DNA from: a virus
Length of the DNA stretch: 23,490 nt
Strand: one strand, 5' to 3'
IMG/VR virus record: IMGVR_UViG_3300034375_001321
Location: 1-23,490 of that record
Positions within the stretch are counted from its first letter, which is position 1. Every line of letters begins with the position of its first letter. Positions 1,760-19,120 of this stretch are shown here, one piece after another. The notes under the pieces were generated by a model, which searched no databases, was not told the DNA's origin, and saw nothing but the letters and a program-made list of their open reading frames with translations. The translations under genes and the position numbers were made by a program.

Positions 1760-2686
1760 ATGTCCAGCTCAATCAGCGATTACCTGAATCAGATCGGAAA
1801 GATCCCGCTGTTGACTGCTGCGGAAGAAATCGAGCTCGGCAACGCTATTCAGCAGATGATGCCCCTCGTGGGCAAAGAGGACCTAACAAGAGAGGAGAAA
1901 AAGATCGTTCGGATTGGCGAGCGAGCAAAGCGCCGGATGATTCAAGGCAACCTTCGCCTTGTAATCCGAGTAGCAGGCAAGTTCAGCAAGATGACAACCC
2001 GGATCACGATGCAAGATCTGATCCAAGAGGGGAACATCGGGCTAATACGTGCCGCTGAAATGTTTGACCCGTCACGCGGCTACAAGTTCTCGACTTACGC
2101 CTACTGGTGGATCAAGCAAGGCATTATGCGAGCCTCTCAGGTTCAAGACCGCATCATCAAGCTGCCAAGCGGTGCGCCTGACATCCTTCGGAAGATCAGG
2201 ACCTACACGATTGAATACCGCGAGCAGCACGGCACAAATCCGACCGTCGAGCAGTGTGCTGAGCTTGTCGGGATGCTGCCGGAGACAATCCGCACCTACC
2301 TCAACAGCGCCAGTGACGCGAGTAGCCTTGATGCCAAGGCTAGAAACAAAGACGACGACGGTAGCAACATTGTCGATCTAATCCCAGGACAGGAAGACCA
2401 ACCTGAAGAGGAGGTCTTACTTGACACTCAGATCGAAGCTGTTCAAAGCGCCCTAAAGCAGTTAAGCCCTAACGCTCAAAAGCTATTAGCGCTGCGCTAC
2501 GGCTTAAACGGTCACGAGTATGTCTCAGCTACCAGCCTTGCCAAACAACACGGAGTTTCACGGGAAGCAATGCGCCGCCAAATTATTTTCGCTGAACAAG
2601 AAATCAAAGCGGTTTTACTAGGTGAATCGCCGGGAAAGCCGCAGAGACAGAAGAGCAGCTCCAGCTTGATCTGGGGTTGGAGCTAA
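1760..2686 (+). CDS. RNA polymerase sigma factor, RpoD-like (group 2, cyanobacterial type)
   Basis: A 308-aa sigma-70 family factor that would direct RNA polymerase to chosen promoters. Region 1.2 is at residues 4-31 (YLNQIGKIPLLTAAEEIELG). Region 2 spans about 55-130 with NLRLVI, DLIQEGNIGLI and the promoter-melting/-10 helix STYAYWWIKQGIMRA (111-125). Region 3 is about 131-210. Region 4 is about 225-287 with LRYGLNG and the -35 helix GVSREAMRRQIIFAEQEI (265-282). There is no long region 1.1, as in group 2 factors. The reading frame is also open upstream to an ATG at 1697 inside ssb, but I chose ATG 1760 because region 1.2 starts immediately and the upstream extension would cross the terminator hairpin. 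Residues in both DNA-contact helices differ from E. coli RpoD, and the C-terminus has a Ser-rich extension. The NrdR-like gene follows after 3 bases. Confidence 0.92.
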   Translation: MSSSISDYLNQIGKIPLLTAAEEIELGNAIQQMMPLVGKEDLTREEKKIVRIGERAKRRMIQGNLRLVIRVAGKFSKMTTRITMQDLIQEGNIGLIRAAEMFDPSRGYKFSTYAYWWIKQGIMRASQVQDRIIKLPSGAPDILRKIRTYTIEYREQHGTNPTVEQCAELVGMLPETIRTYLNSASDASSLDAKARNKDDDGSNIVDLIPGQEDQPEEEVLLDTQIEAVQSALKQLSPNAQKLLALRYGLNGHEYVSATSLAKQHGVSREAMRRQIIFAEQEIKAVLLGESPGKPQRQKSSSSLIWGWS

Positions 2687-2689
2687 ACA

Positions 2690-2989
2690 ATGGGAGCGAA
2701 TCGGATGGGGGCACCTTGCCCTGAGTGTGGCAGCCAAGTTACGGATGTCATCATGACACGCAGCACTAAAGACAATGACAAGGTTCGCAGAAGGCATTGC
2801 TTTTCATGCGGGCACAGGTATTACACCGTGCAGCCAGCTGAAATGATCGCAGAGGGTTCTAGCATCAAGTGGGTCCGCACGAATTATCGTTGCACGATTG
2901 ACTGGTGGGACTTTCAGGAGCCCCTTAAGAGGTTGCTAAGACGCCAAGCCGCGAATCACTTGAGTCATGGTTCGCATCACTGTCGTTAG
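2690..2989 (+). CDS. NrdR-like zinc-ribbon protein lacking the ATP-cone
   Basis: A 99-aa protein whose first 52 residues match the zinc ribbon of NrdR, the repressor of ribonucleotide reductase genes. The cysteine pairs are C10/C13 (CPECGS) and C37/C40 (CFSCGHRY), and the arginine stretch KVRRRH lies just before the second pair. Full NrdR is about 150 aa and carries an ATP-cone after the ribbon. That domain is absent here, and the rest (KWVRTNYRCTIDWWDFQ, then a basic His-rich tail) is unlike it. The protein probably binds DNA but would not sense nucleotides as NrdR does. It lies 3 bases after the sigma-factor stop, so the two are probably co-translated. Its last 54 bases overlap the end of a minus-strand gene. 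Confidence 0.7.
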   Translation: MGANRMGAPCPECGSQVTDVIMTRSTKDNDKVRRRHCFSCGHRYYTVQPAEMIAEGSSIKWVRTNYRCTIDWWDFQEPLKRLLRRQAANHLSHGSHHCR

Positions 2990-6474: not shown

Positions 6475-6494
6475 CCGCCTAGTGAGTAGGACTA

Positions 6495-8099
6495 CTAAGC
6501 AATGCCAGCATCATTTAGACGCTGCTCAAGGGTTTCGATCTTGGCAAGTGCTTCCTGCAACGCAGCCGTCAACAGCGGCACCAACTTCGACTGGTCGATA
6601 CCTTGGTAGACGGGGTTGCCGTCATCATCGACAGCATCCTTTTCACCAGTCACGCACTCAGGAACAACGGCCTGGGCTTCGTGTGCGATAAAGCCGTCAA
6701 CCGTAGTGTCAGGATTAGAAATAAAGTTAAAGCGGCGAACTTGGAGTTGCTTGACGCGATCAGTGGCGCCAGTCAGTGAAACAATATTCTCTTTAAGGCG
6801 GTAGTCGGAGGAGGTGTTATATGCTATTGCTGACCCGTTCCAGCTAATTGATCCATATTGAGTGGTGCTAATGTTAAATCCAATATATTGAGTTCCACTT
6901 ATTAAAGTGTTTGCGTTCATGGCTATGCCATATTCGCTATTTCCTCCGGCAAACGTCATGTCAAACTGGACCGTATTGTTTGATGTTTGACTTGTTGACC
7001 CTAGATAAAGTCTGCCATTGCTATCAATCCTCATCCGCTCCGTCGGGCTGCTCGATCCGTCGGCAGTAGTGGAGAACACTAGGCGGCCTGGCATATCGTT
7101 GGAGCCGGGGGTTGCGTCTACCGCAACATCAATGCGAGCAGCCTCAACCATCTCAGCTCCATCGTTTCCGAAGAAGCTGATTTGACCACAAGCATCCCCA
7201 GATTGAACAACGGTGTTTCCTCCTACACCTCCAGATCTGTTCTTGCCTAAAAGAATTAGTGGGGCGTTGCCATTGTTAGAGGAGTTAACTACAGAGAAAG
7301 CGGAATTTGTGTCAGTAGTAGATTCAACCTGAACAAGAGCGCCACCCCAGCTTGAACTATTAAACCAATTCCCACGGTTAGAAGACGTGCCAACTAACAG
7401 GCGTCCCGAGCTGTCGATGCGGGCGCGTTCAGATCCAGCAGTTGAGAACTCCATTGAGTTCGAGCTGTGTGAATACCGAATCAATCCAGACTGTGCTGCT
7501 GTATCCGAGAAATAAAGGCGGGATGATCCGGCCGTTCCGGTTGACTTAATTTCTACATCAGCAAATCCATTTGTATCTACTCCGGCCGCCTCTATAATTG
7601 ACGCACCTGTTAAACCTGTTACTTTAAAATAAGATCCTGCACTAGCTTCGCCGATGCCAATCTTTCCATCACTTGCAACAAACAACCGCCCAGTGCCACC
7701 AGTCGAGATGGCTACTTGGTCAACGCCAGGTGAATAAACACCCGTATCAGTACCCGAACCAGTAAAGGCAACGCTCGGTGCAGCAGCCGTTCCATCAGGA
7801 ACAATCACAGGCAGCGTGCTAGTCACCGCCGTGGTGCTCACCGTCATCCGGCTAGAGCCGTTAGTGGCAATACCTACCGTGTCGGTGGTGCCAAGAAAAA
7901 TCCCGTTTCCATCATCCGACTCAAAGGCAATCGCCGGGGCTGCTGCCGTTCCATCCGGCACACCCTTGAACAACTCGCCAACGGTGATCTTTTTGTTCTT
8001 GTCCGCTGCAGCGGCTTCGCTTACGTCAACAATGGGCAGGACATCAGCACTAGCCGGAGTGGTCAGCGCGGTCAGATCCGTAATCTTGCGGTCAGCCAC
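6495..8099 (-). CDS. Tail fibre with C-terminal S74 intramolecular chaperone
   Basis: A 534-aa fibre. Residues 1-46 are a likely attachment region. Two copies of a VPDGTAAAP module (47-99 and 100-150) follow, then a long Ser/Thr/Gly/Asn-rich beta-strand shaft and tip. Residues about 430-534 are a peptidase S74 domain: SSDYRLKENI (430-439) with S431 and K436 as the likely self-cleavage dyad, FIAHEAQAVVPE, and a final coiled coil (LQEALAKIETLEQRL). S74 domains fold the trimer and then cut themselves off, leaving the receptor-binding tip. The start is GTG at 8099. No ATG fits the frame. The central part of the gene is much richer in AT than its neighbours. It would be the distal receptor-binding fibre. 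Confidence 0.9.
   Translation of the reverse strand: MADRKITDLTALTTPASADVLPIVDVSEAAAADKNKKITVGELFKGVPDGTAAAPAIAFESDDGNGIFLGTTDTVGIATNGSSRMTVSTTAVTSTLPVIVPDGTAAAPSVAFTGSGTDTGVYSPGVDQVAISTGGTGRLFVASDGKIGIGEASAGSYFKVTGLTGASIIEAAGVDTNGFADVEIKSTGTAGSSRLYFSDTAAQSGLIRYSHSSNSMEFSTAGSERARIDSSGRLLVGTSSNRGNWFNSSSWGGALVQVESTTDTNSAFSVVNSSNNGNAPLILLGKNRSGGVGGNTVVQSGDACGQISFFGNDGAEMVEAARIDVAVDATPGSNDMPGRLVFSTTADGSSSPTERMRIDSNGRLYLGSTSQTSNNTVQFDMTFAGGNSEYGIAMNANTLISGTQYIGFNISTTQYGSISWNGSAIAYNTSSDYRLKENIVSLTGATDRVKQLQVRRFNFISNPDTTVDGFIAHEAQAVVPECVTGEKDAVDDDGNPVYQGIDQSKLVPLLTAALQEALAKIETLEQRLNDAGIA
7650..7961 (-). repeat. Two tandem copies of a PDG-A-AP fibre module
   Basis: Residues 47-99 (7803-7961) and 100-150 (7650-7802) of the S74 fibre both begin VPDGTAAAP and continue through a Gly/Asp-rich loop to a strand pair ending in a GSSR or TGR turn. 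The same module occurs in the neighbouring collar fibre gene at 8822-9103. Confidence 0.75.
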
Positions 8100-18268: not shown

Positions 18269-18691
18269 TCACTCAAGGTTGCCGGTAATAGCACCGCTGG
18301 TGATGAAGTTGCAGCTGACAACAACCAGCTCGCCAACAGTGGAGCTGATCTCCATGTCGGTGATGATGCCAGCAAAACTGACCGAATCAGAGCCGGAAGT
18401 CGAGCCGGTGGTGAACAGCTCGAAGGTAGCGTCTGCCGGATCGGCAGTGGTCAGCACATCTTCCAGGAAGCCAGCTTGACCAGTTGCGTCGGGGTCATAG
18501 ACCAGCTCGACGGTGCCGGAACCGGAGATCAGGCTGCCGACAAAGGAGCGGAAGGTGTCGCCGTGATCGGTGACATCCAAGGTTTCCTTAGTAGTGGTCA
18601 GGCTCCAGCTGCGGGTGCCAACGATGGTGGCGTTAGTGCTGCCAGCTGCGTCGAACTGAACAGAACCTTGTTCGCCTCGGAGAATTGCCAT
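18269..18691 (-). CDS. Major tail (tube) protein
   Basis: A 140-aa protein with the features of the siphovirus tail tube family: GEQGSVQFDAAG, TRSWSLTTTKETLDVTDHGD, SGSGTVELVYDP and a closing SFAGIITDMEISSTVGELVV. It stacks as hexameric rings around the tape measure. It is much shorter than lambda V (246 aa) and lacks an added Ig-like domain. It lies between the tail terminator and the G chaperone, as expected. The ATG is 3 bases after the upstream stop. The gene is probably strongly expressed, as the tube is the most abundant tail component. Confidence 0.87.
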   Translation of the reverse strand: MAILRGEQGSVQFDAAGSTNATIVGTRSWSLTTTKETLDVTDHGDTFRSFVGSLISGSGTVELVYDPDATGQAGFLEDVLTTADPADATFELFTTGSTSGSDSVSFAGIITDMEISSTVGELVVVSCNFITSGAITGNLE

Positions 18692-18694
18692 GGG

Positions 18695-19120
18695 TCAGAG
18701 TCCCTCGATGGATTCAAAGGTCACACGGACCTGGGTTTGGAAATAGCCCTCGGGAGCTGGTGAAGCCAGAGCCTCTGGACCTGTTGGAGCGTCGAAGAAA
18801 ACCCCCGACACGTTGACCCTATTGTAGAGATCGCGGATTCTTTTCCCGATGGTGTAGTTAGCACCAGGACCAACACCGGGAGCCGTAAAGATGTTGAAAA
18901 CGACTAGCCCGAAGATTCTGTTCTGCGAGTTGCTAGTCCCGCCTTGGCTGAGGTACTCGTTAGCACCGAAGGTCGTTAAGCACTGCACCCAACTAGATGC
19001 CGGGGTGGGCTCGTACGCCATGTTGTGAAAGACCACAGGGATAGCAGGGCTTTCCGCTAGCTCGGTTGCTAATCGCGCTTCGATGGTGGCGCGAACCGTG
19101 TTGAGGTTGATTGCTGCCAT
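18695..19120 (-). CDS. Tail terminator protein, lambda U-like
   Basis: A 141-aa protein (lambda U is 131 aa). It begins with a helix NLNTVRATIEARLATELAES, then IPVVFHNMAYEP and SSWVQCLTTFG, a strand pattern with FGLVVFNIFTAPG, a helix IGKRIRDLYNRV, and ends FQTQVRVTFESIEGL. This order matches tail terminator proteins, which cap the finished tube and join it to the head. Position between the gp10-like gene and the tube gene agrees. ATG overlaps the upstream stop as TGATG. Confidence 0.8.
   Translation of the reverse strand: MAAINLNTVRATIEARLATELAESPAIPVVFHNMAYEPTPASSWVQCLTTFGANEYLSQGGTSNSQNRIFGLVVFNIFTAPGVGPGANYTIGKRIRDLYNRVNVSGVFFDAPTGPEALASPAPEGYFQTQVRVTFESIEGL

Follow-up and report, generated by a model that had tools for sequence, protein, structure and literature searches.

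A phage sigma factor gene between a terminator and a zinc-ribbon gene

The window analyzed here, a 23,490-base IMG/VR record of a virus of marine cyanobacteria, carries a sigma factor gene at 1760-2686 on the + strand, and a search of the whole record identified this open reading frame (ORF) as its sole sigma. The 0-frame product of 308 amino acids spans regions 1.2-4.2. Pfam matches to sigma regions 1.2, 2, and 3 lie above cut-off; region 4 scores below it (19.2 versus 24.1 bits) but is nevertheless recognizable in the alignment and in a predicted model, where the helix-turn-helix of region 4.2 looks normal (helices at 257-264 and 268-286). The model (mean pLDDT 75, pTM 0.43) matches solved sigma factors, and a sequence comparison gives cyanobacterial SigA proteins as the best relatives in the PDB. 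ORF, alignment, and model together bear out a preliminary description of this locus, which had listed all sigma-70 core regions as present. With regions 1.2, 2, 3, and 4 and no region 1.1, the protein has the makeup of a group 2 sigma-70 factor. It scores 244.9 bits against NCBIfam TIGR02997 (cyanobacterial RpoD-like group 2), for which the curated value is 384.5, and is thus related to this subfamily yet outside its curated bounds.

An intrinsic terminator (GGGGGGCTTGCCCCCC followed by TTTTTTT; 1729-1751, +) separates ssb from the sigma gene. Such a terminator lies at most 60 nt upstream of sigma in all 19 loci of the clade to which this sigma belongs, named here for a methionine at the position of RpoD T440 (the Met440 clade), versus 1 of 80 loci of other phage sigmas. 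A TTGAAT-N15-TCTAAT sequence just before the terminator of the window was rejected as a promoter, as these bases encode the C-terminus of the ssb product (VES..MPF stop). In the L129-like subclade only, a candidate promoter, TTGCAG-N17-TACCCT, directly precedes the terminator.

Directly after sigma, at 2690-2989 (+), lies a gene for a small protein with an N-terminal zinc ribbon. A zinc-ribbon ORF follows sigma in 18 of 19 clade loci, the 19th being cut off, versus 3 of 80 others, one of which is NrdR-like. The ribbon is of the NrdR N-terminal type (PF22811) in 10 of 10 proteins; the protein shares this element with NrdR but differs in having no ATP-cone domain and in being joined to a phage sigma, and we class it as a zinc-ribbon protein, not as NrdR. 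Similarity to Ogr/Delta activators was weak (2 of 10 proteins matched, best E 0.0064), and no clamp motif was evident in the zinc-ribbon protein. One locus outside the Met440 clade, L136, also encodes an NrdR-type zinc-ribbon ORF directly downstream of sigma.

Promoter-contact residues and descent

The preliminary description had pointed to altered promoter-contact residues, and alignment to E. coli RpoD from MG1655, which also supplies our numbering, confirmed each of them. In the -10 helix, WWIKQGIMR, Q437 is retained and T440 is replaced by Met, and the -35 helix, SREAMRRQII, keeps R584, E585, and R588 while carrying R586A, Q589R, and I590Q. Region 3.0 adds two substitutions beyond those listed earlier, H455G and E458D. 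Met440, Ser454, Gly455, and Asp458 are invariant in 13 of 13 clade sequences, whereas 100 of 105 host sigmas have T440 and 101 have H455; the contact residues of regions 2.4 and 3.0 are therefore fixed otherwise than in hosts. The -35 residues behave differently. At 80% region 2 identity, mean region 4.2 identity is 34% in the clade, versus 58% for the remaining phage sigmas and 66% for host sigmas, and dN/dS of the clade sigma is 0.16 in region 4.2 versus 0.027 in region 2. The invariance of regions 2 and 3.0 and the divergence of region 4.2 indicate that the part reading the -10 element is frozen in an altered state and the part reading the -35 element is drifting, being less constrained. 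Because region 4.2 varies inside the clade, the altered -35 residues do not amount to one fixed new specificity.

In a tree built by a quick method, all phage sigmas form one branch among cyanobacterial group 1/2 sigmas (SH-aLRT 97), with a single MAG contig falling inside it, and the Met440 clade is one branch of its own (SH-aLRT 99). The phylogeny that had been proposed as a check thus places the protein as group-2-like and outside every sampled host clade. A group-2-like sigma of cyanobacterial group 1/2 descent forms part of the overall explanation set out below, toward which we lean slightly.

Close relatives of this sigma, at 53-98% identity, are encoded at loci L002-L008 and L122-L131, and relatives occur on at least 586 IMG/VR stretches. 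Annotated homologues are present in Synechococcus phages S-CBS3, S-CBS1, KBS-S-2A, and S-LBS1 at the same genome position, and P-SS2 carries a group 2 sigma (PMC2784084). A full-size group 2 sigma had been thought unusual in cyanophages, and these examples overturn that view.

A shared -10-like motif upstream of late genes

Clade contigs have two arms. The leftward arm encodes, in order, a replication initiator, TerL, portal, head, tail, and endolysin; the rightward arm encodes an exonuclease, RusA, Sak, SSB, sigma, and the zinc-ribbon protein. The window covers the final stretch of the rightward arm together with the distal portion of the leftward one. Here, as in four published phages, sigma lies distally in the rightward replication arm and faces the point where the late arm ends; in the published phages it is convergent with the endolysin end. 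Given this distal position behind an intrinsic terminator, the sigma is probably made with a delay or from its own promoter.

We also noted some local features. A tail-fibre gene region of the window (6480-7745, -) is, in pieces, about 86% identical to podovirus S-RIP1, a match that makes exchange between phage families likely, the siphovirus being otherwise unrelated. Between the arms of one genome (G002, 18650-18920) and at equivalent sites (L027) lie a small leftward ORF, a terminator-like hairpin, and GGATCC-containing repeats, and this divergent region is possibly a repressor with its operator. In G017 (28438-29664; L235), an endolysin homologue is on the strand opposite to that in other clade genomes.

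By comparing orthologous upstream regions we found a -10-like motif, TAAACT/TACAAT, without a -35 element, upstream of the leftward, late genes. TA[AC]A[AC]T is present in 43 of 43 distinct portal upstream sequences (shuffled mean 1.3), from contigs that are not all known to carry a clade sigma, and lies about 26-33 nt before the start, mostly at -31 to -33. Upstream of the major capsid protein (MCP), TAAA[AC] occurs in 35 of 41 sequences, mostly at -22 to -25 (shuffled mean 2.1). Matches to a -35 element near the portal and MCP motifs were no better than in shuffled sequence. In clade genomes TA[AC]A[AC]T precedes 26 of 330 leftward starts versus 0 of 196 rightward starts (Fisher p 4e-6, the genomes being related), and occurs inside genes 3 times leftward and 2 times rightward; in the rightward arm there are, in its place, a few TATAGT/TATTGT boxes. 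The window has one well-placed copy, a candidate late -10 element TACAAT at 8133-8128 (-), 34 nt before the gene at 6495-8099, with the spacing seen at the portal of relatives; taken singly, it is compatible with chance. A shared upstream motif, which had been proposed as a check, therefore exists before late-arm genes, and it looks like a late promoter.

Other motif searches gave less. A de novo EM search of all upstream regions returned mostly coding signal and yielded no promoter, and standard sigma-70 promoter consensus matches in the first 5 kb of the window were in no excess over shuffles. In most MCP upstreams of L343-L422, a palindrome, GGGCTGCGCCC, stands just upstream of the TAAAC box, often with a second sequence, GGCTGCGCC.

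The preliminary description had further suggested that the sigma directs host polymerase to a distinct promoter set. A shared late-arm motif is there, but it is not specific to Met440: KBS-S-2A and phages with Thr, Gly, or Gln at position 440 have it as well, so we dropped Met440 as its determinant and assign the motif to the phage group. As phages of other sigma clades carry it, the motif might be read by host SigA, and the sigma could then serve host reprogramming, for example of metabolism, with SigA transcribing the late arm at TAAACT. Consistent with such a role, S-CBS3 RpsD4 expressed in S. elongatus altered growth and acetyl-CoA, according to the account of Sawa 2019 given in PMC10452541, and the promoters used by Microcystis phage Ma-LMM01 are all SigA-like (PMC5780444). 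However, the late motif differs from TATAAT at two positions, lacks a -35 element, and is absent from the rightward arm, and every sigma-bearing contig tested that has MCP or portal upstreams shows it or a close variant. We therefore regard host reprogramming as quite improbable, and favor a late sigma of the clade that may itself recognize the motif.

A conserved slippery site near the end of the sigma gene

Near its 3' end the sigma gene contains an in-phase -1 slippery heptamer, G_GGA_AAG (2632-2638, +), seventeen codons before the stop in every clade sequence. The site is kept in 21 of 21 tail variants, as GGGAAAG in 14 and AAAAAAG in 7. In the L129-like subclade, which has A_AAA_AAG, the preceding Pro codon switched together with the heptamer, CCG becoming CCA. 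Across 67,675 codons of eight clade genomes, only 11 in-phase GGGAAAG or AAAAAAG heptamers occur, and 8 of them are the sigma site. A Shine-Dalgarno-like AGGTGA (2620-2625, +) lies 6 nt before the heptamer and is a possible frameshift stimulator; by inspection, most relatives have purine-rich tracts resembling it. The heptamers are those of two known sites that likewise have an upstream Shine-Dalgarno-like tract: A_AAA_AAG is the dnaX heptamer and G_GGA_AAG that of lambda G-GT. To our knowledge no sigma factor gene has a -1 frameshift site of the dnaX/lambda type, and in our incomplete coverage of the open literature we found no sigma with a frameshift-encoded tail. In E. coli, G_GGA_AAG is highly shift-prone and A_AAA_AAG is also shift-prone (PMC5009743).

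The codons around the heptamer evolve under unusual constraint. In the last 21 codons of sigma, pS is 0.195, versus about 0.5-0.7 elsewhere. The most variable codon position is the third before the heptamer and the second after it, the latter being the wobble position in frame -1; the resulting phase difference is +5, a value that none of 63 control windows reached (mean -9.8, max -1). For codons -20 to -6, frame 0 has a pN/pS of 1.10 and frame -1 one of 0.67, compared to about 0.5 and 1.0 upstream, and frame -1 falls below frame 0 solely around and after the heptamer. For both tests we relied solely on 15 sequences retrieved by protein similarity, because an exact pattern search necessarily yields contigs conserved within the pattern. 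The 0-frame tail, SSSL[IT]WGW, is conserved as well, so the effects of frame 0, frame -1, and RNA structure are not fully separable and some frame 0 constraint remains. At the level of sequence, the locus nevertheless has a conserved in-phase X_XXY_YYZ heptamer with selection on the shifted frame downstream, as expected of a programmed -1 frameshift site, and ribosomes may slip here.

Slippage would continue translation into a frame -1 extension, AAETEEQLQLDLGLELNNGSESDGGTLP and a stop (2638-2724, +), yielding a predicted product of 321 amino acids that would contain ...PGKAAETEEQLQLDLGLEL. Across clade variants, frame -1 ends 11-38 nt past the sigma stop. Nearly all frame -1 variants encode T-E-x-Q-L-Q-L-D-L-G, in which QLQLDL (2656-2673, +), lying after the folded domains in a flexible tail, matches the hexameric beta-clamp-binding motif QLxLxL (PMC4564189). 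The predicted tail peptide, TEEQLQLDLGLEL, is a candidate binder of the host DnaN clamp. Heptamer and motif occur together in 25 of 25 distinct Met440 sequences but in none of the 100 other phage sigmas compared. For the codon usage of the window and a fixed 0-frame peptide, the probability of a heptamer with an open frame -1 containing QLxLxL is 0.0008.

KBS-S-2A, an independent lineage, has a sigma (L039, 7779-8708, -) with the 0-frame C-terminus MLQLPLIP, the sole such C-terminal motif among 505 ORFs. A C-terminal clamp motif is not supported as a general phage sigma trait: outside the frame -1 motif of the clade, just 2 of 100 have a 0-frame match (KBS-S-2A and a weak QIGLL). A sigma of a neighboring lineage (L133, 760-1668) contains GGGAAAG 5 codons ahead of the stop, and its frame -1 there reads DLRLDLEDEQLELGDLLDED, which includes QLEL; it is possibly a second frameshift case, and a search for its close relatives found none.

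The same stretch also holds an 11-bp hairpin (2657-2684, +) that spans the sigma end, and this suggests another reading of the conservation. The sigma could be an ordinary group 2 factor made only as the 308-residue 0-frame protein, its 3' end an RNA or DNA element, and the heptamer and QLQLDL by-products; the hairpin might, for instance, hide the Shine-Dalgarno sequence of the zinc-ribbon gene and couple translation. The 3' arm indeed covers a GGAG just before the next start codon, likely that Shine-Dalgarno sequence, and the hairpin is almost invariant in the clade. The 0-frame tail is conserved too. Pair changes in the hairpin were one-sided only, with no compensatory changes, and an Rfam search of the region gave no match. 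An element of this kind does not account for the heptamer, which precedes the hairpin by 18 nt, for the simultaneous change of CCG GGA to CCA AAA that keeps the heptamer slippery, or for the flip in coding phase between heptamer and hairpin. We consider it unlikely, though it deserves more weight than host reprogramming. As a frameshift stimulator the hairpin would be farther off than the usual 5-9 nt from a heptamer.

Frame -1 could also be reached by transcriptional slippage, or the pattern could be a sequencing artefact. A run of six A, as in A_AAA_AAG, can cause polymerase slippage; however, GGGAAAG, the form in most sequences, lacks any long homopolymer, and contigs from numerous separate metagenomes show the same pattern. 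Either origin thus seems very improbable, and translational frameshifting remains our preferred reading.

A proposed model for clamp-coupled late transcription

We propose that the sigma would turn host RNA polymerase toward the leftward arm, which builds the virion, recognizing promoters mainly through region 2, at TAAACT/TACAAT without a -35 element. A fraction of ribosomes would slip -1 at the heptamer, swapping the last 15 residues for a 28-residue tail with QLQLDL. The longer form may attach to host DnaN, and clamp-bound sigma would favor late promoters on replicating phage DNA, as T4 gp55 does. The zinc-ribbon protein is probably a partner or regulator of the sigma. We incline, by a small margin of confidence, to this explanation as a whole: a late sigma partly frameshifted into a clamp-binding form, like T4 gp55 in action yet not gp55. 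On the narrower proposition, that programmed -1 frameshifting adds the clamp tail to create clamp-coupled and free forms, and with them replication-coupled late transcription independent of T4 gp55, our judgment is evenly balanced.

Coupling of late transcription to replication through the sliding clamp is known from T4-type phages. If our model is true, such coupling arose in a different sigma family, using the host clamp, and ribosomal frameshifting determines the proportion of coupled and uncoupled sigma; we know of no description of recoding used in this way. The analysis also makes available, for cyanobacterial siphoviruses of an abundant group, a late-promoter motif that can be put to the test.

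The nearest described proteins are the sigmas of S-CBS3 (RpsD4), S-CBS1, KBS-S-2A, and S-LBS1, the four cyanosiphovirus sigmas compared here, with P-SS2 ORF113 outside the comparison. They belong to the same family, at 34-42% identity to the window sigma, and are likewise located where the replication arm ends, convergent with the final part of the late arm. Unlike the window sigma, they have neither Met440 with Gly455 nor the upstream terminator, the adjacent NrdR-type zinc-ribbon gene, or the slippery heptamer. The sigmas gp36 of phiEco32, whose promoters are single-element (PMC8948821), and gp47 of phage 7-11 also send host core polymerase to late promoters, but they belong, as far as is known, to another sigma subfamily with another promoter consensus and no reported clamp motif.

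The closest parallel in proposed function is T4 gp55, which works with gp33 and the gp45 clamp. T4 late promoters consist of a -10-like element only, and gp55 has a C-terminal clamp-binding motif (PMC7892883); here a -10-like motif precedes late-arm genes and frame -1 encodes a match to the clamp motif, and a late role like that of gp55 is proposed. T4 gp55 is a short, highly diverged sigma with homology to region 2 only, whereas the window sigma is a full group-2-like protein nested among cyanobacterial sigmas, and, since regions 1.2-4.2 are all present, it is not a gp55 family member. Its candidate clamp motif, unlike that of gp55, lies in frame -1. The authors of the T4 structure expected further natural instances of clamp-coupled late transcription (PMC7892883), and the Met440 clade may provide one.
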